Below, one piece after another: positions 78-15,881 of a stretch of 20,137 bases of DNA. The notes under the pieces were generated by a model, which saw only the letters and a program-made list of their open reading frames with translations, was not told the origin of the DNA and did no database searches. The position numbers and the translations under genes were made by a program. Numbering within the stretch: the stretch's first letter is position 1; each line of letters starts with the position of its first letter. The DNA is from Flavobacteriaceae bacterium (lineage in GTDB: Bacteria; Bacteroidota; Bacteroidia; Flavobacteriales; Flavobacteriaceae): the NCBI GenBank assembly GCA_002709185.1, contig PAQB01000046.1, positions 1 to 20,137 on the forward strand, written 5' to 3'.

Positions 78-3000
78 ATGAGGTATAATTATTCAAAGAA
101 GCTTTTGATATTGATCGTTTCAATATTTACAATGACTTTGTCAGCTCAAGATTTTGAAGTGTTGGGGAAAGTCGTTGAAAAAGAAACCAATATTCCGCTG
201 GCAGGCGCCACCATCATTATCAAGGACACCAGCACAGGTGTCAGCTCGGATTTTGATGGGAATTTTAAAATCACTACCCAAAAGGGGCAAATTTTAATCG
301 TTTCTTATGTGGGCTTTAAAACTATTGAAATCGAAGTTCAGCAATCAGATGTTATCGCTTCAATGGAACCAAGCCTTGATGCATTGGACGAAGTAACGAT
401 AAGTGTGGGTTATTTTGATGTCAGTAAAAAAGATCTTTCAGGCGCTATCACCCAGATCAAAACCGAACAATTAGAGCAAAACAGAGCCGCGACCTTAGAA
501 AGTTTATTGCAAGGTCAAGTGGCAGGAGTCGTGGTCACTGAAAGTGCAGAGCCAGGTGGTGGAATCGGGATTTCTATTCGTGGTACAAATTCCATGCTTG
601 GTGGGACCCAACCTTTATATGTGCTTGATGGAATTCCAATTAATCCAGTTGCCGACGCCGAAGGCAATGGGAATTCAGGAGGTACACAGAGCTCCTTAAG
701 CTTTATCAATCCTAACGACATTGAAAAAATGGAGATTTTAAAAGATGCGGCTGCCACTGCCGTTTATGGTGCAAGGGGAGCCAATGGCGTGGTATTGATC
801 ACGACCAAGTCTGCCAATAAAAACAAAGGGAAAGATAAAATATCCTTTACATTTGACAGCTATCTCACCACGGTAAGAGAAAAATTAAATGTGTTAGATG
901 GCCCAGGCTTTGAATCATATATGAATCAACGTTCTTTAAATCAAATCTACCAAGAAATAACAAACCCTGATCGGTCTGGTGGTGCCTTTGATGGTTCACA
1001 AACTTTAAACCTTGATAATTATCCCGAAATTGAAGATTATGCAGTTCCATATCCTGAGTCAACTGGAGTGAGTACCGACTGGCAAGATGAAACTTATCAA
1101 TTGGCTCATACAAATTCTTATAATTTAAGTTACAGGGGTGGAGACTTCAAGAAAAATTACGCACTCAGTTTGGGGATATTTGATCAAGAAGGTGTAATTT
1201 TAAATACCACAAACAAACGTGTTTTTTTAAACTCAAGTGTAAAAAGAAAAGCATTCAACGACAAAATTGATATTTATGCCAGAACCAATGTTTCAAACAA
1301 GAAAGGTAATGCCTCTTCTGTGGGTAATGGACAGATATTTATGCAAAAAAGTGTAGTGTCTCAGCTGTTACAGTTTCAGCCGATTTATTCTTTGCTGGAA
1401 ACGGGTGAAAACGATGATATTTATTCTGCTTTAAACGAGGGGGATTTAATTTCAAACCCCTACACTTTAGCAAAATATGTTGTTGATGAAAAAAAATCAT
1501 TCACCTTTCGACAAGCCCTATCTCTGGTTGGTAAAATTACTCCAAAATTGACGGCAACTCTAAGAGGTGCTTTTGATTATCAGAAGAACACCCGTGACAA
1601 TTATTACCCCACCAATACAACCAGGGGCTATGTAAATAATGGGGAGGCTTCTCAGTCTTATTCAGAAAACAGGAAAATTTATGCTGAAGGGAATCTTCGT
1701 TACAGAAATCGATTCAATGCGCACAGAATTGATGCGACCTTGGTGACAACATACGAGCAAAACGCGATTCGTTCTTTGTTTAATAAAGCGACAGGATTTG
1801 CCAATGACAACACCACTTTCTATAATTTTAATGCAGCAGATGAGATTTTTGTCCCCATATCTCAATATAGAGAAATTGGGTTGTTGTCTGCTCTAACTAG
1901 GGTTGGGTATAATTACAATAGGAAATACTTTATTGATATCAATGCACGTATTGATGCCTCTTCCAAGTTTGCTGAAAATAAAAAAAGTGCTGTATTTCCC
2001 TCTGTCGCCATCTCTTGGGCACTATCAAAAGAACGCTTCATAAGAAGAATTAAGAAAATCAATAATTTAAAACTTCGTTTATCTTATGGTAAAACAGGGA
2101 GTAATCCAATTTCTCCATACCAGTCCTTGGCACTGATGAGCCCGATTCGCTATAATTTTGACGATGAATTGGTAATTGGATTTTATGAACAGAATCTTGA
2201 AAATGATAATTTAACTTGGGAAACGACCGATCAATTTAATGTTGGGTTAGATATTGGGATGTTTGATTCAAGGCTCAATATTACGCTGGATGCCTATCAC
2301 AAATTAACCTATGATTTACTTCAAAATGTAAATTTACCAGCTTCAAATGGCTATGCTACCCGTGTTGATAATTTTGGCGAAATAGAAAACAAAGGATACG
2401 AAATTGGTTTGCAAGCTGAAATGGTTAGGAATGATAATTTTAGTTGGGACCTGAATTCAACTTTTAGTCTCAACAGAAACAAACTTGTTAAACTCAACTC
2501 TAATTTGGAATATCAATTAGGTCCTTCTATTGGATTTTCTGATGCACGCCCCATCATGTTTATGGTTGGTCAACCTTTGGGGATTTTTTGGGGTGCTGAG
2601 ACTGATGGTATTTTTGAAAATTGGGAGCAGGCCAATGCCAGCGGTATTCCCAATGCCGCACCTGGTGAGATTAATTATGTGAACCACCATGTTGATTACG
2701 ATGCCTCTGGTAATCCTTCTGAGAATCAAGTCATTGATTTTGAAGATTACGTTAAACTTGGAGATCCAAATCCAGATTTTAATTTTTCTATCGGAAGTGA
2801 ATTTAAATACAAAAATTGGGACCTTAATCTTTTATTTACAGGTCAACAAGGGGGTGACTTATTCTGGGTAGATTCTTGGCAATTAAGTGGTCTTTTTAGA
2901 ACCCGAAATCATTTGACAGACTCATTTGAAAATTCTTGGAAGGCTCCATTAACGTATTCCAGCGGAACTTTAGTTTATGATCCCGCTGTCGGAAATACAA

Positions 3001-3305
3001 CTGGCGCAGCCCATCCGGCGGCTATTGTCAACAATGGAAACCGCAACACCCCCTCTGACAGACAGGTATTCGATGCTTCATTTTTTAGACTCAAAAACAT
3101 TAATCTTGGCTATAATTTTAATTTTAAAAATGGAAAATCGCTTCGACTTTATTTGTCTGGGCAGAATCTCGTGACTTGGACCCAATACCCTGGATATGAC
3201 CCAGAGGTTCAGACTTACACAAAAAACCCTCAAAGAAGAGGTGTGGACTTTGGAACCTATCCTGGAACAAAGTCTTATATTTTTGGATTAAGACTTAACT
3301 ATTAA
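78..3305 (+). CDS. susC: SusC/RagA-family TonB-linked outer-membrane receptor
   Basis: This protein imports oligosaccharides across the outer membrane, driven by TonB, and normally forms a complex with the SusD lipoprotein encoded next. The 1075 aa are usual for the family. Residues 1-24 are a signal peptide ending LSAQ. Residues 26-108 are a carboxypeptidase-regulatory-like domain with the typical GATIIIKDT and SYVGFK motifs. A Ton-box-like stretch (DEVTISVGY) lies at 104-112. The plug domain covers about 115-245 and shows SIRGTNS, YVLDGIPI and ILKDAAATAVYGARGANG. The rest is a TonB-dependent beta-barrel ending in the expected aromatic residue (FGLRLNY). The ATG at 78 gives a clean signal peptide and follows the previous stop by one base. 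The first gene position in a SusC-SusD-sulfatase string indicates uptake of a sulfated glycan. No anti-sigma or hybrid two-component regulator is visible in the window. Family assignment is certain; the substrate is not. Confidence 0.97.
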   Translation: MRYNYSKKLLILIVSIFTMTLSAQDFEVLGKVVEKETNIPLAGATIIIKDTSTGVSSDFDGNFKITTQKGQILIVSYVGFKTIEIEVQQSDVIASMEPSLDALDEVTISVGYFDVSKKDLSGAITQIKTEQLEQNRAATLESLLQGQVAGVVVTESAEPGGGIGISIRGTNSMLGGTQPLYVLDGIPINPVADAEGNGNSGGTQSSLSFINPNDIEKMEILKDAAATAVYGARGANGVVLITTKSANKNKGKDKISFTFDSYLTTVREKLNVLDGPGFESYMNQRSLNQIYQEITNPDRSGGAFDGSQTLNLDNYPEIEDYAVPYPESTGVSTDWQDETYQLAHTNSYNLSYRGGDFKKNYALSLGIFDQEGVILNTTNKRVFLNSSVKRKAFNDKIDIYARTNVSNKKGNASSVGNGQIFMQKSVVSQLLQFQPIYSLLETGENDDIYSALNEGDLISNPYTLAKYVVDEKKSFTFRQALSLVGKITPKLTATLRGAFDYQKNTRDNYYPTNTTRGYVNNGEASQSYSENRKIYAEGNLRYRNRFNAHRIDATLVTTYEQNAIRSLFNKATGFANDNTTFYNFNAADEIFVPISQYREIGLLSALTRVGYNYNRKYFIDINARIDASSKFAENKKSAVFPSVAISWALSKERFIRRIKKINNLKLRLSYGKTGSNPISPYQSLALMSPIRYNFDDELVIGFYEQNLENDNLTWETTDQFNVGLDIGMFDSRLNITLDAYHKLTYDLLQNVNLPASNGYATRVDNFGEIENKGYEIGLQAEMVRNDNFSWDLNSTFSLNRNKLVKLNSNLEYQLGPSIGFSDARPIMFMVGQPLGIFWGAETDGIFENWEQANASGIPNAAPGEINYVNHHVDYDASGNPSENQVIDFEDYVKLGDPNPDFNFSIGSEFKYKNWDLNLLFTGQQGGDLFWVDSWQLSGLFRTRNHLTDSFENSWKAPLTYSSGTLVYDPAVGNTTGAAHPAAIVNNGNRNTPSDRQVFDASFFRLKNINLGYNFNFKNGKSLRLYLSGQNLVTWTQYPGYDPEVQTYTKNPQRRGVDFGTYPGTKSYIFGLRLNY

Positions 3306-3316
3306 CACAATAAATT

Positions 3317-4912
3317 ATGAAAACTAAAACGTTGTTTAAAATCCATCTCTTGATTCTTTGTGTATTTGTTAGTTCATGCGAAGTGCTTGATGAAACCCCT
3401 TTCGTTCAAACTGATACAGCTAATTATTACCAAAACGCAGAAGATGCCCTTGACGGTTTAACTAGCGCCTACGCGCGTTTAAAAAGTGGTAATGGCTACT
3501 ATAAACAAAAGTATTTATCTACACTTTTTGCAGCCTCGGATCAAGGATTATCAACATTTTTATTGAATAATTTTAAAAATGGTACAGTGACTTCAACAGA
3601 TCCTAATACTGAGGGCATTTGGAAAGATATTTATGTTGCCATTCGGGATGCCAACAATGTGATTGCTAGGGTTCCTTCAATTGATATGGACGAGACTTTA
3701 AAACTAAGAATTTTAGGGGAGGCCAAATTTTTAAGAGCACTGCATTATTTTAATCTTGTACGTTGTTTTGGAGAAGTTCCTCTTAGGCTTGTTCCCGTGG
3801 AGTCAGGAGATGACGAAGGGCTTCCTGTTTCTCCGATTTCTGAAATATATGATGCTATTATCAGTGATTTAGTTGCAGCCAGCAGCGATTGTTGGAACAG
3901 AAATGAAATGGTAGGTACAGAAATAAACAATATCGGTCGTGTTACCAAAGCCGCTGCCAATGCGTTGTTGGCTAAAGTTTATTTACGGATGGCTTCTTGT
4001 AAGCGGACCGCCTTAGACGGAATACAAGGCAATGATAAATATCTTGAGTTCTCTGAAACTCCCTCAGCCTATTACCAATTGGCTGCTGATCATTGTAATG
4101 CTGCTCTATTAGACAGCGGGTTTATTCTCAGTGGAAATTTGGACCAATATAATTCTATATTTGACGCCGATAATGGCAATAATCCTGAAATGTTATTTGA
4201 TGTTCAGGGATCTGATGAAATTGGCCAAGGCACCGCTGTTTCAAATCTTTTCACACCAAGGAACTCAGGGCTGAGCGGCACAGGATTTGGTGGCAGTAAT
4301 AAATTAAAACCAAGATTTATCAACTTTCATATAAATAAAAATGACCCAAGGTTTCAAAATACAATTCTTAAAGAATACCAAAATACAGTTCGTTTGTTTC
4401 AAATTAATAATGGCAGTACCGGCTATATTGGCACCCCATTAGACCCAACTTTAAATCCTTTCACCTTATGGCAGGTATGGACAGCAAAATATATTGATAC
4501 AGGTGCTACTACTCCCTATACCAGCCGTCAAAATTGGCATATCATTAGGCTTGCAGATGTGTATTTAATGCGTGCGGAAGCTTTGGCGGAATTGAATCAA
4601 AATCCAGCTTTAGCTTATCAAGATATTAATGCATTAAGATCTCGTGTTGGTATGGCTAATTTTGATGGTGCGTCCTTGTCAATGGACGCTTTTAGAACGG
4701 CGCTTTTAAAAGAAAGGGGCGTAGAGTTATATATGGAAGGGCATCGGTTTTTCGATCTCACACGCTTTGGAGTATATGATGAGTACTGTTCAAATATTTT
4801 GGGTGCCACATCAAGTCAGTTTGTTCAAGGTGCCATTGGACAACGTCAACCAGAAGACTATACATGGCCGATTCCTATTTTTGAAACCGCGGCGAATTCA
4901 AATATAAATTGA
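3317..4912 (+). CDS. susD: SusD/RagB-family surface glycan-binding lipoprotein
   Basis: This is the surface lipoprotein that captures the glycan and caps the SusC channel. The 531 aa are typical. The signal peptide ends in a lipobox (VFVSSC) with Cys21 as the lipidated residue. SusD hallmarks are the N-terminal TPR-like region (about 37-150, with EAKFLRALHYFNLVR at 135-149 and a FGEVPL turn), the IIRLADVYLMRAEALAELN helix at 409-427, and the C-terminal ERGVELYMEGHRFFDLTRFG motif at 466-485. It starts 11 bases after the susC stop and is followed 20 bases later by a sulfatase, so it is in the same operon. Ligand-contacting residues cannot be predicted from sequence alone. Confidence 0.97.
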   Translation: MKTKTLFKIHLLILCVFVSSCEVLDETPFVQTDTANYYQNAEDALDGLTSAYARLKSGNGYYKQKYLSTLFAASDQGLSTFLLNNFKNGTVTSTDPNTEGIWKDIYVAIRDANNVIARVPSIDMDETLKLRILGEAKFLRALHYFNLVRCFGEVPLRLVPVESGDDEGLPVSPISEIYDAIISDLVAASSDCWNRNEMVGTEINNIGRVTKAAANALLAKVYLRMASCKRTALDGIQGNDKYLEFSETPSAYYQLAADHCNAALLDSGFILSGNLDQYNSIFDADNGNNPEMLFDVQGSDEIGQGTAVSNLFTPRNSGLSGTGFGGSNKLKPRFINFHINKNDPRFQNTILKEYQNTVRLFQINNGSTGYIGTPLDPTLNPFTLWQVWTAKYIDTGATTPYTSRQNWHIIRLADVYLMRAEALAELNQNPALAYQDINALRSRVGMANFDGASLSMDAFRTALLKERGVELYMEGHRFFDLTRFGVYDEYCSNILGATSSQFVQGAIGQRQPEDYTWPIPIFETAANSNIN

Positions 4913-4932: not shown

Positions 4933-6354
4933 ATGAGATTTATTATCATTTCCTTTTGTTTCATCTTTAGCTTAAATTTTAGTTGTTCTTCTGCTAAAGA
5001 GAAGGCTTTAATTACGCCTCCTAATTTTATTCTGATATTAGCTGACGATCAAGGATGGAATGGAACTTCTGTGCAAATGATAGACAACTACCCTCAATCT
5101 AAAAGTGATTACCATGAGACCCCTAACTTAGAGTTACTAGCTGAGCGCGGCATGCGGTTCTCTTCGGCATACGCCAGTGCTCCGGTCTGTTCCCCTTCGC
5201 GTTATAGCATTCAATTTGGCCAAACACCGGCCCGTTTAAAAATGATTCGTGTAGGGATGAATACCAAACACATCCATCATGAAACTCCATATACCATTCC
5301 CAAGCTTTTAAAATCAATCAACCCTAATTATCGGGCTGCACATTTTGGTAAATGGGGTATAGATGCGCATCCCTCTGTCCTTGGATACGATGAAAGCGAT
5401 GGAATCACTGGTAATAAAGACGGAGGTTTTAACCACAAAGCCAATAAAAAACAGTGGCAAAATAACATCAGTGAAGATCCAAAAAAGATATTCAGTACAA
5501 CGGAAAGAGCACTTAATTTTTTAGAGCGCCAAGCCAGTTCAAAGCAACCGTTTTTTTTACAAGTATCTCATTATGCTGTACACTCTGATCTTATGATGCG
5601 TCAAGAAACTTTAAATAAATACAAATCTAAGCCCAAGGGTAAACACCAAAAACACGCTGGTTTTGCAGCCATGACGGAAGATTTAGATGCTGGTGTCGGA
5701 ATGTTGTTAGAACGTTTAAAAGCCTTGGAGTTGGAAGGAAATACTTATGTGATTTACACCTCAGACAATGGGGCCGTTCCTGTCATGCCACCAAGGCCAA
5801 AGTATAAAACAGGCACAAACTACCCTCTAAGTCGCGGCAAGTGGGATGCCATGGAAGGGGGCATTAGGGTTCCTTTTGTAATCGCTGGTCCATTAATTAA
5901 ACCTGGATCAGAATCCAAAACATCCATTACATTTTCAGATCTAATGCCTACAGTTATCGATTTGGCCGACGGTTCATTGCCAACTTACGAAGTATTGGAT
6001 GGCGGGAGTTTTAAAAATATTCTTCTTCGTAAAGGAACCAATGTTAAGCGACCCTTTGATGGACTTGTTTTTCACGTACCCTACGAAAATGGCATTGCAT
6101 TAAAACGCGCTCATTCTTCGATTATAATGGACCATTTAAAATTGATTAAATTTTATGACAATAATGAGCTTCTTCTTTTCAATTTAGAAAATGATATCGA
6201 AGAGAAAAACAATCTCGCAATGACACAACCTAAAAAGTGTGAGTTTTTGGAAACCGCACTAGATACTTATTTACAAAATGTCAAGGCTCCTAAATGGAAA
6301 ACTGGCCTTACATGGAAATCTGGTACAGTTGAAAAAATTAACTCATTTCATTAA
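4933..6354 (+). CDS. S1-family (formylglycine-dependent) sulfatase, first of three
   Basis: Predicted to hydrolyse a sulfate ester on the PUL's target glycan. The 473-aa protein has the S1 sulfatase active-site signature C-x-P-x-R as CSPSR at residues 86-90. Cys86 is the residue converted to formylglycine by a maturase encoded elsewhere. Metal-binding acidic residues sit in ILADDQG (Asp38-Asp39) and YTSDNG (Asp278-Asn279), and the active-site Lys is in FGKWG (Lys140). The N-terminus is a hydrophobic export signal; LNFSC with Cys18 is a weak lipobox, so it may be periplasmic or a lipoprotein. The overall look (LADDQGWNG near the start, HFGKWG) recalls the S1_16 subfamily, which contains galactose/GalNAc 4-O-sulfatases, but this subfamily call is from memory and weak. 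The gene lies 20 bases after susD and is in the same operon. Confidence 0.93.
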   Translation: MRFIIISFCFIFSLNFSCSSAKEKALITPPNFILILADDQGWNGTSVQMIDNYPQSKSDYHETPNLELLAERGMRFSSAYASAPVCSPSRYSIQFGQTPARLKMIRVGMNTKHIHHETPYTIPKLLKSINPNYRAAHFGKWGIDAHPSVLGYDESDGITGNKDGGFNHKANKKQWQNNISEDPKKIFSTTERALNFLERQASSKQPFFLQVSHYAVHSDLMMRQETLNKYKSKPKGKHQKHAGFAAMTEDLDAGVGMLLERLKALELEGNTYVIYTSDNGAVPVMPPRPKYKTGTNYPLSRGKWDAMEGGIRVPFVIAGPLIKPGSESKTSITFSDLMPTVIDLADGSLPTYEVLDGGSFKNILLRKGTNVKRPFDGLVFHVPYENGIALKRAHSSIIMDHLKLIKFYDNNELLLFNLENDIEEKNNLAMTQPKKCEFLETALDTYLQNVKAPKWKTGLTWKSGTVEKINSFH

Positions 6355-6415
6355 CAAAATAAATCGCAATAATTTCTTAACTTACAAACAACTAATTAAC
6401 ATTAAAATTTACAAC
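6355..6415 (+). other. AT-rich leader before the small secreted protein gene
   Basis: This 61-base gap is the longest one inside the first operon. It is about 80 percent A+T, has no stable hairpin, and shows no clear match to the Bacteroidota promoter consensus (TTTG … TAnnTTTG). AT-rich leaders without Shine-Dalgarno sites often precede well-translated Bacteroidota genes, so it may simply be a strong translation initiation region for the next gene. Confidence 0.3.
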
Positions 6416-6748
6416 ATGATAAAAAAAATATTTTTAATTACAGTCCTTATTTGTTTTTCTTTTAAAGGCCTCTCTCAGAATAATCCTGAGCAAAAGGCAA
6501 AAGCGTTTTTAGCTGAAATGGCAAAGGTTCTTAATCTCGACAAAGTAGAAAAACAAGAAGTCTATACAGTACAATTGGATCGGTTTACACAAGCCGCTGA
6601 AATTCGTCAAAATCACAAAGCGGAACCTCAAATAAAAAAGGCGAAGTTAAAAAAAGTATACAATAAATTATACGGAAAAATGAATGCCATTATTGGAAAA
6701 GAAAGAATGCAAAAATGGTCGGAATATAAAAAACAATCAAAAAATTAA
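6416..6748 (+). CDS. Small secreted helical protein of unknown function
   Basis: A 110-aa protein with a cleavable signal peptide (residues 1-21, ending GLSQ) and a short, highly charged, probably all-alpha mature part rich in Lys, Glu and Gln. It contains LNLDKVEKQEVYTVQLDRF and ends in KERMQKWSEYKK. I chose the ATG at 6416; the open frame reaches back to 6278, but that extension overlaps the sulfatase gene and would bury the signal peptide. The layout loosely resembles periplasmic Spy/LTXXQ-type helical proteins, though the LTxxQ motif itself is not present. I believe similar short proteins occur near flavobacterial PULs but cannot check this. It lies between a sulfatase and a T9SS-exported binding-type protein, five bases before the latter, so the two are co-translated. 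Possible roles are a periplasmic chaperone or a stress-sensing protein; no function can be assigned. Confidence 0.85.
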   Translation: MIKKIFLITVLICFSFKGLSQNNPEQKAKAFLAEMAKVLNLDKVEKQEVYTVQLDRFTQAAEIRQNHKAEPQIKKAKLKKVYNKLYGKMNAIIGKERMQKWSEYKKQSKN

Positions 6749-6753
6749 TAATT

Positions 6754-7740
6754 ATGGTCAAGAAAATTACTCTATTAATTTTAACAACAATTACAAGCGT
6801 ATTATATGCTCAGACTACGATTGGAGAATCATCTCTTTTCGCTACAACAACCAATCCAACTTGGACACATGTATTTACAGCCGCTACAACAGCTGACGGT
6901 GTTGCAGTCAGTGGACCAGCTCAAACAGTTGTAATTAATATTACAAGTTTGCCTGATGGTTCAACTTATAGAATATATAAAACAACCTCATCGGGTGCAG
7001 CAGATTTTAGTCAACAAGGAGATTTAGCAATGGGAGAAAATACAATTACGGTTGCCGCAGCTAATTTTAATCGTGCAGTTAAATTTCAGTTTTCAGGGGA
7101 AGGCTTGATTGAATTTGATTCATTCTCACATAATGGAGTAGTTCTATACCCTGTTGAAGAATGTGGACCTGACGATAATATCATTGGTACATCAAATTTA
7201 TTTGTTTCTCAAGAAGGTCAATGGCCTTATTCTTTAACACTTGCTTCAATTGATGATGGTAATATGGGCGAAGTACACTCATTTACGATGGATGTTACTT
7301 GTTTACCAGCTGGTGGTGCGCAGTATAGAATTTTAAAGACGGGTCCAAATGGTGATATTACATGTTGTAATGTAGATCTTTCTTTAGGGCTCAATACTAA
7401 AAATGTTGCTGCCAATGGAGGTTGGACAAGAAATGTTAGATTTTGGTTCAGTAGCGGAGATATTGGATTTTCTTCCATAACTTCAAACGGTTCTGCATTA
7501 GGTTTACAGGAGATTAATTATGCATTAGTAAAGATTCATCCGAATCCCGCAACAAATTTTCTCACGATTTCAGGGGTAAATAATATCGACTCTGTAAAAG
7601 TGTACTCTGTTTTGGGTCGTTTAGAAAAAGAAGTTTTTAATACCCACCAAATTGATATTTCCCATTTAGCGTCGGGTGTGTATATGGTTAAAGTGAGTGA
7701 TGGAAGTAATGTGATTTCTAAAAAATTCATTAAACAGTAA
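6754..7740 (+). CDS. T9SS-exported protein with two copies of an unnamed beta-rich domain, putative surface glycan-binding protein
   Basis: The 328-aa protein has a signal peptide (1-20, ending LYAQ), domain copy A (about 21-132), domain copy B (about 142-249) and a type A T9SS C-terminal sorting domain (about 255-328). The sorting domain shows IHPNPATNFLTIS, VKVYSVLGR, HLASGVYMVKV and the final KKFIKQ. Nothing else is left over, so the protein consists of the paired domain plus its export tag. No catalytic motif is visible. The two copies are related to each other and to a third copy in the GH128-like enzyme at 9412-11670 (for example LPxGxxYRIxKT and RxVxFxFSxGxIxF). Its place in the PUL, the beta-strand pattern and the coupling to a glycosidase suggest carbohydrate binding at the cell surface; this is inference. 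It is the last gene of the first operon, ending 15 bases before a strong terminator. The sequence is A/T-biased, with simple codons, as in highly expressed genes. Confidence 0.88.
   Translation: MVKKITLLILTTITSVLYAQTTIGESSLFATTTNPTWTHVFTAATTADGVAVSGPAQTVVINITSLPDGSTYRIYKTTSSGAADFSQQGDLAMGENTITVAAANFNRAVKFQFSGEGLIEFDSFSHNGVVLYPVEECGPDDNIIGTSNLFVSQEGQWPYSLTLASIDDGNMGEVHSFTMDVTCLPAGGAQYRILKTGPNGDITCCNVDLSLGLNTKNVAANGGWTRNVRFWFSSGDIGFSSITSNGSALGLQEINYALVKIHPNPATNFLTISGVNNIDSVKVYSVLGRLEKEVFNTHQIDISHLASGVYMVKVSDGSNVISKKFIKQ
6814..7149 (+). repeat. Unnamed beta-domain, copy A
   Basis: Protein-level repeat, residues about 21-132 of the 328-aa protein. Key matches to the other copies are the N-terminal GESSLF, INITSLPDGSTYRIYKT in the middle, LAMGENTITVAA, and NRAVKFQFSGEGLIEF followed by HNG at the end. 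It is the most divergent copy: the WPY and DDGNxG motifs of copies B and C are replaced by WTH and TADG. Confidence 0.7.
7177..7500 (+). repeat. Unnamed beta-domain, copy B
   Basis: Protein-level repeat, residues about 142-249 of the 328-aa protein. It contains GTSNLF, WPYSLTLASIDDGNMG, LPAGGAQYRILKT, LSLGLNTKNVAA and RNVRFWFSSGDIGF…SNG. It aligns nearly without gaps to copy C in the neighbouring glycosidase. It carries three Cys (183, 204, 205), not present in copies A or C. Confidence 0.75.
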
Positions 7741-7755
7741 ATAAAATTCATTAAC

Positions 7756-7802
7756 AAAACTGATAAGTTCGAAACCATACTTTTGAGTTTATCAGTTTTT
7801 TT
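7756..7802 (+). terminator. Strong hairpin terminator at the end of the first PUL operon
   Basis: AAAACTGATAA at 7756-7766 is perfectly complementary to TTATCAGTTTT at 7789-7799. The stem continues inward with A-U, C-G and G-U pairs to a CCATAC loop (7775-7780), giving about 19 paired positions. The 3' arm runs straight into a T tract (7796-7802). It could act in both directions because the 5' arm starts with an A run. It lies 15 bases after the 328-aa gene and only 12 bases before the next start codon. Confidence 0.85.
7778..7785 (+). promoter_or_regulatory. Possible Bacteroidota -7 box inside the terminator hairpin
   Basis: TACTTTTG matches the -7 consensus TAnnTTTG. There is no convincing TTTG -33 element 17-23 bases upstream, and the motif lies in the 3' half of a hairpin, so this may be chance. 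If real, it would start a very short leader (about 20 bases) for the TTG-started sulfatase gene. Confidence 0.22.
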
Positions 7803-7814
7803 AAACCATTTATT

Positions 7815-9392
7815 TTGAAGACAAAAGCCTTCATATTATTTTTTTGTGTAATAAATTTATTTTGCAATGCCCAGATGCTCTCTAAAAATAAAAAATCACC
7901 TAATATTGTTTTTATTTTTTCAGATGACCATGCCACCAATGCCATTTCAGCTTATGGTGGACTTTTTAGAGACATTGCACCAACCCCCAATATAGATCGC
8001 ATTGCTTCGGAAGGCACTTTACTAAAAAATGTGCTTTGTACCAATGCCATATGTGGCCCCAGCAGAGCTTCCATTCTCACGGGAAAATACAGCCATGTAA
8101 ATGGATATTATAAAAATTATAAAGGCGGTGTTTTTAATAATGAACAGTGGACTTTTCCTCAGGCTTTAAAATCTGCTGGATTTCAAACAGCTTTGGTTGG
8201 AAAATGGCATTTGGCTTCTGAGCCTGTTGGTTTTGACTACTATAAATACCACATTTCTAAAGGACAGCAAGGCTTTTATTGGGATCCAGTTTACAACGAT
8301 AATGGTCAAGAAAAGGCTGAAAATGGTTATGCCACAAACTTGACTACTGATTTTGCTTTGGATTGGCTTAAACACAGGGATACCAGCAAACCATTTTGTC
8401 TGATGTTGCAATACAAGGCACCCCACCGCGAATGGGCTCCAGACCGCAAATACGAAACGCTTTGGGACTCCATCCAAATGCCTTATCCAGAAACGTTTGA
8501 TGACGATTATAAAGGCAGAGAATTAACTGCCGGTAACACGGAAATGACCATGGACTATTTCAGTAGACAGGACATGAAAATGAGCCCTCCTAAAGGACTA
8601 TCTAAACAGAAAAGACGCAAATGGTTGCATTATGGATTTAAACCTGGGCAAACAGTCTCTCCTTCGAAAGACCTAAGTGCTCAACAAGTTCGTCAATGGA
8701 AATATCAACGGTATATTAAAGATTATTTAGCCACTATCAAATCTGTAGATGACAATATCGGAAGGGTTTTAGATTATTTAAAAGCCCATGGGCTTGAAGA
8801 AAATACCATCGTAATTTACAGTTCCGATCAAGGTTTTTTCTTGGGAGAACACGGGTTTTTTGACAAACGGTTTATGTATGAAGAGGCATTACACATGCCT
8901 TTTGTCGTACGTTATCCAAAGGTCATTGAACCCGGGACTGTTTTAGAGGATATTGTAACCAATATAGATTTTGCACCCACGCTATTAGATATGGCTGGTA
9001 TTGAAATTCCTGAAGCAGTACAAGGGAAAAGTTTTTTTTCTAATTTAAAAGGGAAAACTCCGAGGAACTGGCAAAAATCAATGTATTATCACTATTATGA
9101 ATACCCTTTTTATCACCGGGTCCAACCGCATTATGGAATTCGAAATCAAAGGTATAAGTTGATTCATTTTTATTATGATATGGATGTTTGGGAATTTTAT
9201 GATATTAAAAAAGACCCAATGGAATTGAATAATTTAATCCATTCAGCGGCTTACAAAGGGCGCATAAAAAAACTAAAGGCAGAATTGTATCAATTGAAGC
9301 AAGACTATGGGAATCAATTGTCTTTAGAAGAACTGAGACACATCACAGATACTGATTTTGGAGGGTTGGAATCCAAAAAGAAAAAGTTTTAG
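7815..9392 (+). CDS. S1-family sulfatase, second of three (GlcNAc-6-sulfatase-like)
   Basis: A 525-aa formylglycine-dependent sulfatase. The active-site signature is CGPSR at residues 80-84 (Cys80 modified). Acidic metal ligands are in IFSDDHA (Asp37-Asp38) and YSSDQG (Asp338-Gln339), and the active-site Lys is in VGKWHL (Lys130). The APHREWAPDRKYETLW and SSDQGFFLGEHG stretches resemble the S1_11 subfamily, known for N-acetylglucosamine-6-O-sulfatases; the exact substrate is uncertain. The start codon is TTG at 7815: an in-frame stop (TAA, 7764-7766) and the absence of any ATG exclude an earlier Met, and the first internal Met (residue 21) would delete the whole signal peptide (residues 1-20, ending CNAQ). 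A TTG start next to a terminator suggests deliberately low expression. A 270-285 region rich in Lys/Arg (KQKRRKW) sits in a long insertion before the C-terminal metal site. Confidence 0.92.
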   Translation: MKTKAFILFFCVINLFCNAQMLSKNKKSPNIVFIFSDDHATNAISAYGGLFRDIAPTPNIDRIASEGTLLKNVLCTNAICGPSRASILTGKYSHVNGYYKNYKGGVFNNEQWTFPQALKSAGFQTALVGKWHLASEPVGFDYYKYHISKGQQGFYWDPVYNDNGQEKAENGYATNLTTDFALDWLKHRDTSKPFCLMLQYKAPHREWAPDRKYETLWDSIQMPYPETFDDDYKGRELTAGNTEMTMDYFSRQDMKMSPPKGLSKQKRRKWLHYGFKPGQTVSPSKDLSAQQVRQWKYQRYIKDYLATIKSVDDNIGRVLDYLKAHGLEENTIVIYSSDQGFFLGEHGFFDKRFMYEEALHMPFVVRYPKVIEPGTVLEDIVTNIDFAPTLLDMAGIEIPEAVQGKSFFSNLKGKTPRNWQKSMYYHYYEYPFYHRVQPHYGIRNQRYKLIHFYYDMDVWEFYDIKKDPMELNNLIHSAAYKGRIKKLKAELYQLKQDYGNQLSLEELRHITDTDFGGLESKKKKF

Positions 9393-9411
9393 AAACCTTG
9401 TTTGATAAAGT

Positions 9412-11670
9412 GTGAAGCGAATTATCATTTTCTCATTACTACTTTTGTCTTTAAAGTCTTTTGCGCAAGGCTATGTATGGACAGGCAGTGGGGGAGATGC
9501 TAACTTTTTTAATGAACTCAATTGGATCGATATCCAATCTGGTCAGGCGCCACAGACAGGCAGTATTGACCCAAACCAATCCATTGATTTTGATATGTTT
9601 TTAAGTTGTGACGTCAAAGCAAAGACTGAAAACTTTCAAGGCGCTAGTATCGCTTCTGAAGCCCCTAATATTTTTAGTACTGGCCCTAGCGATGCCTGGC
9701 CTTACATTTATGCGGTTGCGGCATTTGATGATGGCAATAATGGTAGGCAACACGATTTTCAAATTAACATTACGGATTTACCCACAGAAGGTGCCAGCTA
9801 TCGCATTGTGAGAACTCTGTCCTCTGAAAATTGGTACAACCAACCCGCCAGGTCGCTCAGTATAGGTCTAAACACAATAACTGTCAATCGTGTAGACTAT
9901 GACCGCGCTGTAAAAATTCAGTTTAGCAGTGGTGCCATCCGCTTTGATGAAGTTTCATTAAACGGGATCCCTTCGTATTCCCCTTCATTAGAACCCATTG
10001 TTATGGGCCCTTCCAACATATTGCACATTTCAAATGGAAGTCTTAAGGCTTTGAATATTTCTGGAGGTCGCCTTATTTTGGAAGATAATGCTTATGTACA
10101 TTTGACAGATTCTGCACCACTATTAAACGGTGTTGAGTTTGATATTAATGCTGGACTCAGTTGGTTATGCTTAGAAAATACTCCACCAGCTCAAGTCTAT
10201 GATTCTTTTTTGTCACAAATTTCTGTTAGTGATGTTGTTGCTCAATACCCTACAAACATTCGTCTTGATAACTATTATGAACATGGAACCATTGTTCGAG
10301 CTAATGGTTTAGATGCCTCTCCATTGACATTATATTCAGGAGAAAATTTGAGTGGCTCAGAAGCTACAATTGGTATTAATGACGTCTACAGTGGCGCTTC
10401 AATTCCCAATCAAATGAATAACAGCATCGGCTCTTTTGTACTGCGAAAAGGCCATATGCTAACAGTGGCAGTCAATCCCGACGGGACAGGGAAAAGTCAA
10501 GTTTTTATTGCTTCTGAATCCGATATTGAAATTCATTCTTTGCCTATTTCACTACAATCTAATGTTTCATTTATAAGAGTTTTACCATGGAATTGGGTGT
10601 CTAAAAAAGGTACTGCTGGTGATGTACTAGACATGAACAATACATGGTTCTACAGATGGAACAACCAGGGAATCTCAGATTTTCAACGAGAATATTCACC
10701 CATGGCTTGGGGTTATGGGGGTGCCAATGATGCCAATGATATCCTTCTTTATCAATCCAAATATAAATCAACCCATATTTTAGGATTTAATGAACCAGAC
10801 GATTGTAATGGTCAGTCTGGGCAATACAATAATATGTGCGATGAGGCCACCGCAGTGGCTATTTACGAAAATTTAATGAAAACAGGATTACGCATGGTGT
10901 CTCCAGCCTGTCGCCAAGGAGCCGTATTCAATTGGCTAGACAATTTCAATCAATTGGCAATACAAAACAACATACGTATGGATGTGATTGCATTGCATTG
11001 GTATGATTGGAACGGCAGCCCTCAAAGTTCGCCCAATGCCAATCCTCAAAATATATTTAACAGATTTAAAAATTATTTAAATGATGTTTATAGCTTATAT
11101 GGTCTCCCAATTTGGATTACTGAATTTAATGCCAACAAGTACAGATCTGTTGAAGTGAACCGTCAGTTTATGGAACTGGCCATTCCCTACCTTGAAAGTT
11201 TACATTTTGTGGAACGCTATGCTTGGTTTGAACCCAACCCAGTCGCTCCTGCTAATATTGGAAATGGCCAGTATTTCGATTCCGATAATAACCTTACGGA
11301 TATCGGTGCATTTTATAAGAATTACCCATCCAATCCCGCAATTCCGCAAGTTTTTTATATGGGGTCTAATAATTTGATGGATGAGACTTCATTAAATCAA
11401 TTTTCACTTTCTTGCAACCCAGACAATGTGCTTTCAAATGGCCCAACATTTAGTCTTGAAAATAAAACACTTAAAGTCTTCCCAAATCCAGCGACTAAAA
11501 GTGTAAAAGTCATTTTCCCATTTCCGATTAGAGATTTTAAAATGTACAATATCAGTGGGCTATTGATTCATAAAAAACTGGTACAAGGGTCTGTTGATGT
11601 ATCCGATTTACCGGCAGGAATGTATATGATTGTAGTGGATCATCAACATTGTAAATTTTTAAAAAAATAA
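9412..11670 (+). CDS. Multidomain T9SS-exported GH128-like glycosidase
   Basis: A 752-aa secreted enzyme. Order: signal peptide (1-19, ending SFAQ); a WTGSGGDANFFNELNW segment (about 22-70) common at the start of Bacteroidota secreted modules; unnamed beta-domain copy C (about 74-189); a beta-rich linker region (about 195-380); a Glyco_hydro_cc/GH128-type (beta/alpha)8 catalytic domain (about 385-640); T9SS sorting domain (about 685-752, with VFPNPATKSVKV and LPAGMYMIVV). Catalytic acid/base is Glu461 in LGFNEPD; nucleophile is Glu571 in IWITEFN; LHWYD at 528-532 is the usual companion motif. Characterised GH128 enzymes cut beta-1,3-glucans, so an endo-acting role on the cell surface is likely, although the sulfatase-rich PUL argues for a different or modified substrate. 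The start is GTG at 9412; TAA lies two codons upstream in frame, and the first internal Met is at residue 62, beyond the signal peptide. It follows the sulfatase stop by 19 bases. Confidence 0.88.
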   Translation: MKRIIIFSLLLLSLKSFAQGYVWTGSGGDANFFNELNWIDIQSGQAPQTGSIDPNQSIDFDMFLSCDVKAKTENFQGASIASEAPNIFSTGPSDAWPYIYAVAAFDDGNNGRQHDFQINITDLPTEGASYRIVRTLSSENWYNQPARSLSIGLNTITVNRVDYDRAVKIQFSSGAIRFDEVSLNGIPSYSPSLEPIVMGPSNILHISNGSLKALNISGGRLILEDNAYVHLTDSAPLLNGVEFDINAGLSWLCLENTPPAQVYDSFLSQISVSDVVAQYPTNIRLDNYYEHGTIVRANGLDASPLTLYSGENLSGSEATIGINDVYSGASIPNQMNNSIGSFVLRKGHMLTVAVNPDGTGKSQVFIASESDIEIHSLPISLQSNVSFIRVLPWNWVSKKGTAGDVLDMNNTWFYRWNNQGISDFQREYSPMAWGYGGANDANDILLYQSKYKSTHILGFNEPDDCNGQSGQYNNMCDEATAVAIYENLMKTGLRMVSPACRQGAVFNWLDNFNQLAIQNNIRMDVIALHWYDWNGSPQSSPNANPQNIFNRFKNYLNDVYSLYGLPIWITEFNANKYRSVEVNRQFMELAIPYLESLHFVERYAWFEPNPVAPANIGNGQYFDSDNNLTDIGAFYKNYPSNPAIPQVFYMGSNNLMDETSLNQFSLSCNPDNVLSNGPTFSLENKTLKVFPNPATKSVKVIFPFPIRDFKMYNISGLLIHKKLVQGSVDVSDLPAGMYMIVVDHQHCKFLKK
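9631..9978 (+). repeat. Unnamed beta-domain, copy C
   Basis: Protein-level repeat, residues about 74-189 of the GH128-like enzyme. It shows WPYIYAVAAFDDGNNG, INITDLPTEGASYRIVRT, LSIGLNTITV, and RAVKIQFSSGAIRF followed by LNG. It is closest to copy B and shares GLNTITV/GENTITV and RAVKxQFS with copy A. Being attached to a catalytic domain, it fits the role of a carbohydrate-binding module. Confidence 0.75.
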
Positions 11671-11728
11671 AGTCTGAGATATTGAATTAGTTTTTCTATC
11701 TTGAAATGAATTATTTAACTTGATTAAA

Positions 11729-13237
11729 ATGCGATTTATAAAGTTTGGATGTTTGGTTATACTGGCCCTTTCAGTCACAGGATCAAAACCGTCTAAATCC
11801 AGTTCAAAACTAAATGTATTATTTATTGTCGCAGATGATCTTAATTGTGCATTGGGAGCTTACGGCGACCCGCTGGCCATTACGCCTAATCTGGATAAAT
11901 TAGCCCAAAAAGGTCTTGTATTTAACAATGCCCATGTTCAGTATCCGCTTTGTGGTCCTTCTAGAGTTTCTTTTATGACTGGAATGTACCCCGACCAAAC
12001 AAAATCCAAGGTTTTGAGGTTATATGTACGTCAGACCATTCCCGATGTTGTGACCTTGGGGCAAAAATTTAGAATGGAAAATTACCATTCCGTAAGAGTG
12101 GGTAAAATTTACCATTACCACAATCCTAGAGACATTGGAACCGCTGGCCATGATGATTCTTTTACTTGGGATCAGACGGTCAATCCTTATGGACGTGATA
12201 AAGTTGAAGAATATAAACTTAACAAAGTAAAGCCAAATTTTGATGGGGCAACTTTAAGTTGGCTGGAATCTGAGGGTGCAGATGAAGAACAAACAGACGG
12301 TATCGGAGCTTCCGCAACCATCGATTTTTTAGATACTTTTGCAAAAAGTGAAGAAAATTTCTTTTTGGCCTTTGGATTGTACCGTCCGCATGTGCCATTT
12401 GTAGCCCCTAAAAAGTATTTTGATCTTTACGATATCAATGATTTTAGTGTTCCAGAAACATCAGACGACTACCTTAAAACGATTCCCAAGCCTGCCGCAG
12501 TTTCACTCAGAGCCAGAAAAGAACAAATAGACTTAGACCCCGCTCTATCAGCGACAATTAAACATGCCTATTATGCTACAACCAGTTTTATGGATGCACA
12601 AATCGGACGGGTTTTAGATAAACTTAAGGAAACAGGACTAGACAAAAACACCATTATTGTATTTACATCCGATCACGGCTATCATTTAGGTGAGCATGGG
12701 CATTGGCAAAAACAAACCCTCTTTCAGGATGCTACTCGAGTTCCTTTGATATTTGCTGGACCTGGCGTTAAAAAAACAAAAAAATATGTTGATGCACCAG
12801 TTGAGCTTGTGGATCTTTATCCAACGCTTATGGATATGGTTGGGATGAAAACACCATCATTTGTCAGTGGTAAAAGTTTAACGCCATTTTTTGATAATCC
12901 AAACACCGCCATTCGCTCATCTGCTTTTACTGAGCTACAAGTAAATAGAGGACAAATTAAAGCCCAAGGCTATGGGATTCAAACGACTCGTTATCGCCTC
13001 AACCAATGGCAATTTAATGGACGTACTGAGTATGAATTGTACGATCATAAAAACGATCTTGAGGAATTAAAAAATTTAGCTAATTTAAGTTCTTACAATG
13101 CCATTAAAGACTCTCTTTCCATTATTTTGAACCAAAGAATTGTAGCCGCTAAAACACGTCCTAAAGGTTTAGGCCGACAAATTGACAATGCACGCCCGTG
13201 GAATGAGCCCAAAAGATTTTTCCCCAATCCCAAATAA
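11729..13237 (+). CDS. S1-family sulfatase, third of three (iduronate-2-sulfatase-like, S1_7 type)
   Basis: A 502-aa formylglycine-dependent sulfatase. Signature CGPSR is at residues 75-79 (Cys75). Metal ligands are in IVADDLN and TSDHGYHLGEHGHW, and the active-site Lys is in VGKIYHYH (Lys126). The YRPHVPFVAPKKYFDLY, SFMDAQIGRVLD and PVELVDLYPTLMDM motifs follow human iduronate-2-sulfatase closely in order and wording, placing it in the S1_7 group. That group also includes sulfatases acting on carrageenan and ulvan, so 2-O-sulfated uronic acid is only one option. The open frame also has a TTG nine bases earlier (11720), but the ATG at 11729 puts a normal hydrophobic export signal (RFIKFGCLVILALSV) at the N-terminus, so I prefer it. 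There is no lipobox Cys. A 58-base gap separates it from the GH128-like gene, with no clear promoter or terminator. Confidence 0.93.
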   Translation: MRFIKFGCLVILALSVTGSKPSKSSSKLNVLFIVADDLNCALGAYGDPLAITPNLDKLAQKGLVFNNAHVQYPLCGPSRVSFMTGMYPDQTKSKVLRLYVRQTIPDVVTLGQKFRMENYHSVRVGKIYHYHNPRDIGTAGHDDSFTWDQTVNPYGRDKVEEYKLNKVKPNFDGATLSWLESEGADEEQTDGIGASATIDFLDTFAKSEENFFLAFGLYRPHVPFVAPKKYFDLYDINDFSVPETSDDYLKTIPKPAAVSLRARKEQIDLDPALSATIKHAYYATTSFMDAQIGRVLDKLKETGLDKNTIIVFTSDHGYHLGEHGHWQKQTLFQDATRVPLIFAGPGVKKTKKYVDAPVELVDLYPTLMDMVGMKTPSFVSGKSLTPFFDNPNTAIRSSAFTELQVNRGQIKAQGYGIQTTRYRLNQWQFNGRTEYELYDHKNDLEELKNLANLSSYNAIKDSLSIILNQRIVAAKTRPKGLGRQIDNARPWNEPKRFFPNPK

Positions 13238-14723: not shown

Positions 14724-15881
14724 ATGCATAAACTCATACCAATATTTTTTCTGTCTATTTTAATTTCTGTCCATGGTCAAGACAACAATAAGAAAGGCTT
14801 GTCCGATGTTTATAAAGATCATTTTATGATTGGTACAATTTACCATGGCGCTGTGTTGGGGAATGATAATCAGAATCCAAACCAAAAAAAGGAGTTTGAA
14901 ATTACAAATCGAGAATTTAATGCCATCACTGCTGAAAATTGTATGAAACCCATGTATTTAATTGATGAAAATGGGGCATATGATTTTAAGGAGTCTGATG
15001 CCTTTGTTGCATATGCACAAGCTAATGGACTGAGCATTATTGGCCATACATTGGTTTGGAAAAACAGTGCCCCAGATTGGTTTTTTAAAGGCGATTATGG
15101 AACAGTGGTTTCTAGAGATGTTTTGATTCAACGTTTGGAAGCCTATATCGAAACGGTTGTAACTCGTTATAAAGGCAAGATTGCCTATTGGGATGTCGTC
15201 AACGAAGCTGTAGATGTTTTTAGAACTAATGATGGCCAGAAATATGCCAAACTCAAACCTACACCCTGGCATGACATTATTGGAGATGATTACATTAAAA
15301 TAGCCTATGAAGCAGCCCATAGGGCCGATCCTGACTGTAAATTATTGTACAATGATTTTAATATGTACCAAAAAGAAAAGACTGATTTCATCATTGATAT
15401 GGTTAAAAACTTAAGAGCGCAAGGAGTTCCAATTCATGGTATTGGCTCTCAAGGTCATATGTTTATGCAACATCCACTTTTAGAGGACGTCGAGTACTGG
15501 CTTAAAGCGTTTTCTAAAGCCAATATTCCACTTCACATCACAGAGATGGACATCAGCGTATTGCCAAATGCATGGAAACACAAAGGGGCAAGTGTTGAAG
15601 ATCGATTTGATTTAGCAGCAGAGTTTAACCCTTATTCCAAAGGCGTTCCCGAGCGGGTTTTGAAACAGCAAGCCAGACGCTACAAAGCGCTTTTTAAATT
15701 GTTTTTAAAATACAGTGCCAATATAGAGCGTGTGACGTTCTGGGGGGTGTGGGATGGCAACTCTTGGCGCAATTACCTTCCAATGCGGGGACGTACAGAT
15801 TATCCTTTACTATTTGATAGAAATTTCAAAAAAAAACCAGCTTATCATGCCTTGAAAGCATTGGTAAATAAAGAGGATTAA
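14724..15881 (+). CDS. GH10 glycoside hydrolase (endo-xylanase family)
   Basis: A 385-aa secreted single-domain enzyme; signal peptide about 1-18. It has the family's (beta/alpha)8 landmarks: AENCMKP (70-76), GHTLVW (107-112), WDVVNEA with acid/base Glu161, GIGSQGH (239-245), HITEMDIS with nucleophile Glu274, and FWGVWDGNSW near the C-terminus, ending with KKPAYHAL. Most GH10 enzymes cut beta-1,4-xylan by retention. The stretch after GHTLVW reads KNSAPDW, where canonical enzymes have HSQxPDW; Lys113 and Ser115 replace His and Gln, and the Gln normally lines the -2 subsite. This suggests a substrate other than plain xylan, for example a sulfated or mixed-linkage one. There is no carbohydrate-binding module, lipobox or T9SS tail, so it is likely periplasmic. 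It is the last gene of the + strand operon; only 25 bases separate it from the convergent symporter gene. Confidence 0.93.
   Translation: MHKLIPIFFLSILISVHGQDNNKKGLSDVYKDHFMIGTIYHGAVLGNDNQNPNQKKEFEITNREFNAITAENCMKPMYLIDENGAYDFKESDAFVAYAQANGLSIIGHTLVWKNSAPDWFFKGDYGTVVSRDVLIQRLEAYIETVVTRYKGKIAYWDVVNEAVDVFRTNDGQKYAKLKPTPWHDIIGDDYIKIAYEAAHRADPDCKLLYNDFNMYQKEKTDFIIDMVKNLRAQGVPIHGIGSQGHMFMQHPLLEDVEYWLKAFSKANIPLHITEMDISVLPNAWKHKGASVEDRFDLAAEFNPYSKGVPERVLKQQARRYKALFKLFLKYSANIERVTFWGVWDGNSWRNYLPMRGRTDYPLLFDRNFKKKPAYHALKALVNKED

Follow-up and report, generated by a model that had tools for sequence, protein, structure and literature searches.

The window described here, i.e. the whole stretch of 20,137 nt that was analyzed (Flavobacteriaceae bacterium, assembly GCA_002709185.1, contig PAQB01000046.1, positions 1-20,137, forward), represents a flavobacterial polysaccharide-utilization locus. 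A pair read as SusC/SusD is followed by a sulfatase gene, a small open reading frame (ORF), the gene for a 328-amino-acid (aa) tandem protein, a second sulfatase gene, the gene for a protein of glycoside hydrolase family 128 (GH128), a third sulfatase gene, and genes for a CotH protein and a GH10 protein; a reverse-strand gene after the GH10 gene was read as a symporter. The subject of this report is a repeated domain of about 105 residues, hereafter the module, of which two copies (A and B) are found in the tandem protein and a third (C) in front of the GH128 catalytic core. We regard it as probably a small carbohydrate-binding module (CBM) of an unnamed family, by which the tandem protein would capture a sulfated polysaccharide and copy C would hold the GH128 enzyme on it. 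The features are as follows (T9SS, type IX secretion system; HMM, hidden Markov model); other loci, proteins and genomes carry L, P and G numbers.

6754..7740, + strand: tandem-module gene, 328 aa; signal peptide (by eye), copy A, copy B and T9SS type A tail
6826..7140, + strand: copy A, residues 25-129 of the 328-aa protein (iterated HMM)
7189..7494, + strand: copy B, residues 146-247 of the 328-aa protein (iterated HMM)
7534..7737, + strand: T9SS type A sorting domain of the tandem protein, residues 261-328 (Pfam E 9.7e-14, to residue 326; TIGR04183 E 2.9e-15)
9412..11670, + strand: GH128 protein, 752 aa, with copy C and T9SS tail
9667..9966, + strand: copy C, residues 86-185 of the GH128 protein (iterated HMM)
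10630..11316, + strand: GH128 catalytic core, residues 407-635 (PF11790 E 3.5e-37)
11476..11667, + strand: T9SS type A tail of the GH128 protein, residues 689-752
78..4912, + strand: SusC/SusD pair at the head of the locus (78-3305, 3317-4912), assigned by reading; same-order homologs in L036, L038, L053, L056 and L070
4933..6354, + strand: sulfatase 1; best solved relative, kappa-carrageenan sulfatase S1_16 (9fo1, E 3.6e-58)
6278-6748: small ORF ahead of the tandem gene; likely real start inside, ~107 aa; signal peptide by eye
7815..9392, + strand: sulfatase 2, between both module genes; best solved relative, N-acetylglucosamine-6-sulfatase (5g2v, E 5.5e-145)
11720..13237, + strand: sulfatase 3; best solved relative, 6hhm 'arylsulfatase' (E 1.3e-70), then iduronate-2-sulfatases
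14724..15881, + strand: GH10 xylanase-like enzyme, nearest to xylanases

The three copies are homologous: pairwise Smith-Waterman scores of 117 (A-B), 161 (A-C) and 152 (B-C) lie far above all scores of shuffled sequences (maxima 48, 52 and 49, respectively; 1000 shuffles per pair), the iterated HMM places each copy, and the copies align as one domain. The preliminary description, made from the sequence alone, had proposed three copies in two neighboring genes, and this is borne out; different folds, which it had named as the counter-case, were not seen. The landmark motifs that it listed are present, the LPxxG motif being one residue shorter in copy A (LPDGSTYRI). Its T9SS-exported 328-aa protein and its GH128-like catalytic domain behind copy C were recovered as well: the ORF is present with a confirmed T9SS type A tail (export predicted), the PF11790 core was confirmed, and one sulfatase gene lies between the two module genes. 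The T9SS tails of the two module proteins score 56.0 and 26.2 bits with TIGR04183 (cut-off 23). The signal peptide of the tandem protein, recognized by eye, ends in AQ and has no lipobox cysteine; the protein has a T9SS tail in place of the lipobox of an outer-membrane lipoprotein. The GH128 core scores 128.7 bits against PF11790 (cut-off 21), and its catalytic motifs FNEP and WITEF align with the solved GH128 structures 6uaq and 6ufl (in 6ufl the second site is Q).

The module stretch of both window proteins gave no match near any Pfam or NCBIfam cut-off, in agreement with the earlier statement that no established family name applies, and no CBM family was among the Pfam matches of either protein up to E 10. 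A profile of 25 copies, searched against all PDB sequences, gave one match at chance level (E 0.48), and no profile search assigned the copies to a family with a non-carbohydrate role. The tandem-protein query matched 147 proteins (the best 120 of 147 were listed), the copy C query eight, and a query with the gammaproteobacterial copies 154 (best 120 of 154 listed). The profile detected 294 copies in all of 130 proteins (128 fetched by homology plus the two window proteins; 1-7 copies per protein), and the iterated profile 706 copies across 239 proteins fetched by homology searches. Two candidate names were rejected. Big_13 and Glucodextran_B give scattered sub-domain matches in some homologs only; Big_13 exceeds the Pfam cut-off in one of ten homologs scanned (P0089, 32.8 bits vs 27, over 43 residues) and is not among the Pfam matches of either window protein. 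The precomputed label PF27334.1 (P0088) occurs once among the 120 matches listed.

For copy C alone, an AlphaFold model was predicted with a mean pLDDT (predicted local distance difference test) of 95.5 and a pTM (predicted template modeling score) of 0.88, and by this model the module would be a discrete, independent fold. The top Foldseek match of the tandem model is the tandem CBM22 of Xyn10C (E 3e-5, with a TM-score of only 0.19), and the single-module model weakly resembles CBM4, CBM16, CBM22 and CBM35 entries; the VIA comparison of the tandem model mostly reflects the T9SS tail and is of little value for the module. Assignment to the xylan-binding family CBM22 was rejected because there is no sequence match and because unrelated jelly-rolls give equally weak structural scores. 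Compared with CBM22-1/CBM22-2 of Xyn10C (4xup/4xuo), the module is ~40 residues shorter and 6% identical, and differs further by its nearly invariant basic residues and its sulfatase neighbors.

These basic residues are at positions 54, 57, 88 and 91 (numbered on the copy C model). In alignment A5 (76 rows), every row has R at position 88 and either K or R at position 91, whereas K or R occupies position 57 in 97% and R position 54 in 95%; copies A, B and C keep all four. Such nearly fixed basic positions would fit an anionic ligand. They also bear on a rival view, in which the module would be an adhesin repeat or structural spacer with an Ig-like role, holding proteins away from the surface without need of a sugar ligand. 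The weak Pfam similarity to Big_13 and Glucodextran_B, the tandem arrays of up to seven copies, and the presence of the module in large multi-repeat proteins and in a phage tail protein (see below), a protein type in which Ig-like spacers are common, would agree with a spacer. A spacer would not be expected, however, to conserve polar and basic positions (R88 and K/R at 91 in 76 of 76 copies), to have structural neighbors that are mostly jelly-rolls by our classification rather than Ig domains, to occur as single copies inside enzymes (sulfatase, GH128), or to have its tandem genes adjoin sulfatases; we therefore consider a spacer role unlikely.

The module is mobile among unrelated proteins. 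In 74 genome loci, 98 ORFs with 175 copies were found, and their architectures comprise stand-alone tandem proteins, a ~757-aa single-copy protein, GH128 fusions, large proteins, and arrays in Verrucomicrobiota. Flavobacterial GH128 proteins carry one N-terminal copy (five loci besides the window), and gammaproteobacterial GH128 proteins carry two C-terminal copies in L055, L067 and L069 (metagenome-assembled genomes, MAGs, of Cellvibrionales and Porticoccaceae) or four in the larger proteins P0140 and P0144. BLASTP gives 25-29% identity between the window core and those of L055, L067 and L069. Two changes of the GH128 label are required on a tree built from 97 copies, and two are forced by its starred branches; this tree rests on few columns, with 43 of 94 inner branches open and the bootstrap unsettled. 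The orthologous GH128 protein of L070 has a clean gap at copy C, i.e. the module and its linkers are absent and the rest of the part shown aligns. An N-terminal region of the GH128 protein (9475-9630 and 9985-10581; residues about 22-73 and 192-390) is interrupted by copy C; this region is unbroken in L070, and Pfam gives no match for it.

In L072 (Opitutaceae MAG), a module match covers residues 184-261 of an S1 sulfatase and is flanked by stretches that match the window sulfatases. The N-terminal motif of the module seems to follow this match when the ORF (L072:1763-4441, minus strand) is read, as if the module were circularly permuted; a similar partial match is found in genome G511 (positions 27-102). 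In protein P0228, the module is combined with a BD-FAE-type esterase domain. As a non-catalytic module, the domain is thus joined to carbohydrate-active enzymes, namely to GH128 in two architectures and to an S1 sulfatase.

The ~757-aa protein with one copy is encoded on the minus strand of L003, L006, L008, L012, L017, L025, L035, L047 and L048, and also in L066. The other nine proteins are 75-80% identical to the L003 member over ~505 residues outside the module, and a multi-copy module gene is nearby in nine of the ten loci. Two of the sequences, read by eye, suggest a right-handed beta-helix; the L003 member, the one scanned, gave no Pfam match with E of 0.01 or below. P0129, P0132, P0140 and P0144 contain acidic repeats in pairs (DxDxDGxxDALTDGLLLLR type), which we read as similar to EF-hands of the dockerin type.

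Such repeats on gammaproteobacterial arrays, as well as the fact that tandem proteins share the module with other proteins encoded in their loci, would suit a protein-protein docking unit that gathers the sulfatases and glycosidases of a locus into a complex. No conserved partner domain was noticed, though no systematic search was made, and the module is carried by a phage tail protein also; docking is the least credible of the explanations considered, and we regard it as very improbable.

The neighborhood of the tandem genes points to sulfated substrates. Sulfatase ORFs were collected with a profile grown from the three sulfatases of the window (71 ORFs, 66 with a C/S-x-P-S-R type motif), and tandem-type genes were defined as ORFs of less than 520 aa with at least two copies. 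A sulfatase was found within 2 kb of 21 of 29 tandem-type genes; among the 18 genes flanked on either side by 2 kb or more of sequence, 16 have one. In 15 of these 16 cases the sulfatase lies within 150 bp on the same strand, and the two misses (L007, L024) stem from a single contig. The number expected among 18 is 0.38 from 15 sulfatase-poor flavobacterial genomes (81 sulfatases in 25.0 Mb), 0.81 when all 26 genomes are counted (300 in 43.8 Mb), and 3.7 from the sulfatase-richest genome (56 in 1.8 Mb). When the five window-like loci (L036, L038, L053, L056, L070) are excluded, 11 of 13 remain; the loci counted are partly orthologous and hence are not independent events. The neighboring sulfatases are relatives of the window's own (about 48-60% identity). 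Two counts weigh against a general tie to sulfatases: a sulfatase lies within 2 kb of 41 of the 98 module genes in total and, among the 19 that encode at least 1000 aa, of only one.

SusC/SusD genes accompany the module in the window and in the five window-like loci, and most other loci have no match on the sequence examined; window-type sulfatases are also found in such loci (e.g. L003, L005, L006, L015, L044). L005 has an FGE-type sulfatase-modifying gene just upstream. In L068 (CotH protein 97% identical to that of the window; 1629-4827), the tandem gene and the sulfatases are kept and no GH128 gene is found between sulfatases 2 and 3, a statement for that interval only, as GH128 may be encoded elsewhere in the genome. 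The small ORF ahead of the tandem gene has a homolog in the same place in L036, L038, L053, L056, L068 and L070. Flavobacteriales account for most of the modules beside sulfatases; Verrucomicrobiota (L065, L072) and Gammaproteobacteria (L040, at a distance of 1.2 kb) contribute isolated cases.

The loci with sulfatases and without a detected GH128 bear on another explanation, that the module binds neutral beta-1,3-glucan (laminarin) together with GH128 and is a relative of CBM102 or CBM103, the laminarin modules whose families were reportedly founded by Zuhlke et al. in 2024. CBM102 is said to occur as tandem copies in a surface protein and CBM103 on a GH16 enzyme. The GH128 fusions of two apparent origins would agree with laminarin binding, and GH128 is listed as laminarinase in the available text of PMC11573768. 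Tandem genes, however, adjoin sulfatases also in loci without a detected GH128. Laminarin is said to be unsulfated, and the source of CBM102/CBM103 to be a cultured Christiangramia, whereas all 74 genome loci are MAG, uncultured or single-cell-style; we consider the laminarin explanation quite unlikely, and somewhat less likely than a spacer.

Sulfated algal polysaccharides represent a large and poorly understood pool of carbon in the ocean. We infer glycan binding by the module, and a sulfated ligand because of the sulfatase linkage and the nearly invariant basic residues. Since the module is shared, as a mobile unit, by two distant GH128 branches, by a sulfatase and by a phage tail protein, and since its tandem form adjoins sulfatases, it would most simply be a CBM for a sulfated polysaccharide. 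The two-copy protein would be exported by the T9SS to the cell surface or into the medium, where it would capture the sulfated polysaccharide; copy C would keep the secreted GH128 enzyme on the same polymer, which the sulfatases would strip, and the SusCD pair would import the products. The preliminary description had likewise proposed a new CBM; architecture, neighbors and predicted fold support this part, but the widest association is with sulfatases and not with the glycosidase. Both the association with sulfatases and the occurrence in phages go beyond that description.

The sulfatases of the window are nearest to kappa-carrageenan sulfatase S1_16, to N-acetylglucosamine-6-sulfatase, and to the arylsulfatase/iduronate-2-sulfatase group. 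Sulfated-xylan loci with GH10 and sulfatases are described for North Sea Flavobacteriia in the available text of PMC6298971 and PMC6794258. The label 'sulfated xylan' locus, suggested by GH10 and sulfatases, was considered, but the substrate is left open because the two conserved patterns given in the accessible part of PMC6794258 differ from the gene set of the window. The module would thus be a sequence handle on a substrate that is not readable from the enzymes alone, and as a small, confidently predicted domain it is suited to production in E. coli and to glycan arrays.

The earlier wording of a 'new type of surface glycan-binding protein' was too strong, as a tandem-CBM surface protein is said to exist for laminarin (CBM102/CBM103). 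The two systems, compared by description, are alike in that tandem modules form a surface protein, a single module sits on a glycosidase, and the locus is marine; they differ in that CBM102/CBM103 reportedly belong to laminarin loci without sulfatases in a cultured flavobacterium, whereas the present module has sulfatase neighbors and uncultured hosts. The T9SS tail and the link to sulfatases make the tandem protein distinct from those laminarin proteins. Like surface glycan-binding proteins of the SusE/F type, it is a non-catalytic multi-module protein of a SusCD locus; unlike these, which are said to have a lipoprotein anchor, it has a T9SS tail. In the available text of PMC13235733, a new family CBM113 is described and Zuhlke et al. 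(2024) are cited on laminarin modules. Literature searches gave no description of the module or report on its binding, the module being nameless and most subscription papers lying outside the coverage.

The module was also found on viral contigs: a scan of 2.9 million gave 12 loci in three gene contexts, and no additional contigs came from five more scans, for which two phage copies and three family alignments served as queries. The L135-L139 copies occupy about residues 116-212 of a 1063-1079-aa protein (the L135 ORF runs to the contig end) that matches the tail protein phrog_457 (E 3.9e-191 for L138, 9.1e-191 for L136). The module gene of L138 is preceded by genes for a head-tail adaptor, head assembly, a major head protein and tail protein phrog_446. 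When this tail protein is aligned with tail tubular protein B of phage RHEph01, two matching stretches flank the module region; with HTVC041P the alignment is unclean, and one local piece extends into the module region. Among 2527 annotated phage records with a relative of the tail protein, none covers 80% of it in one place, and two phage-borne queries did not find the module in 50,697 annotated phage records. In L129-L134, the module is in a 275-276-aa protein with no PHROG match (tested for L134), and portal or virion-protein matches were seen on the contigs of L130, L131 and L134. In L128 (5809-6537), it is in a 243-aa protein on a 119-kb contig with a phage-type DNA polymerase gene; this protein and three neighbors gave no PHROG match. 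The copies of L134 and L128 keep all four basic positions and that of L138 keeps two.

We tentatively suggest, and consider it possible rather than probable, that phages in these three gene contexts use the bacterial module to hold the sulfated marine polysaccharide that the bacteria would consume, or cells coated with it. Carbohydrate-interacting domains on phages are a known theme in the available text of PMC6949934, PMC9853417 and PMC13370021; like the phage Ig-like and BACON domain proteins described there, the present proteins carry an extra binding-type domain, but of a different family that is shared with bacterial polysaccharide-degradation genes and is inserted in a homolog of tail tubular protein B.

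The genome loci are from Flavobacteriales (including Crocinitomicaceae and Cryomorphaceae), Verrucomicrobiota and Gammaproteobacteria; two loci filed under a Euryarchaeota MAG (L058, L074) are probably misbinned. The titles of 72 of the 74 loci say MAG or uncultured, and the remaining two (L047, L065) bear codes that are presumably of single-cell style; the uncultured origin of all genome loci may explain the missing family name. From the record titles, the hosts are apparently marine. Genome searches gave few matches: in the order of G001 the module is present in 22 of 395 genomes (each 0.8-2.9 Mb in size), in the class of G012 in two of 188, and in the order of G016 in one of 293, the starting genome being included in each of the latter two counts.

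A conserved run of genes for proteins of ~631, 583, 349 and 391 aa, 68-79% identical between loci, accompanies the sulfatases and tandem genes in L005 (5548-11436), L006 (832-6075), L015 (14068-19930) and L025 (13705-19564). No Pfam family was found for its members of 634, 587 and 349 aa; the 391-aa member is CBM30-like and is followed in L006 by a GH2-like barrel. This run is probably a sulfated-polysaccharide locus without SusC/SusD.

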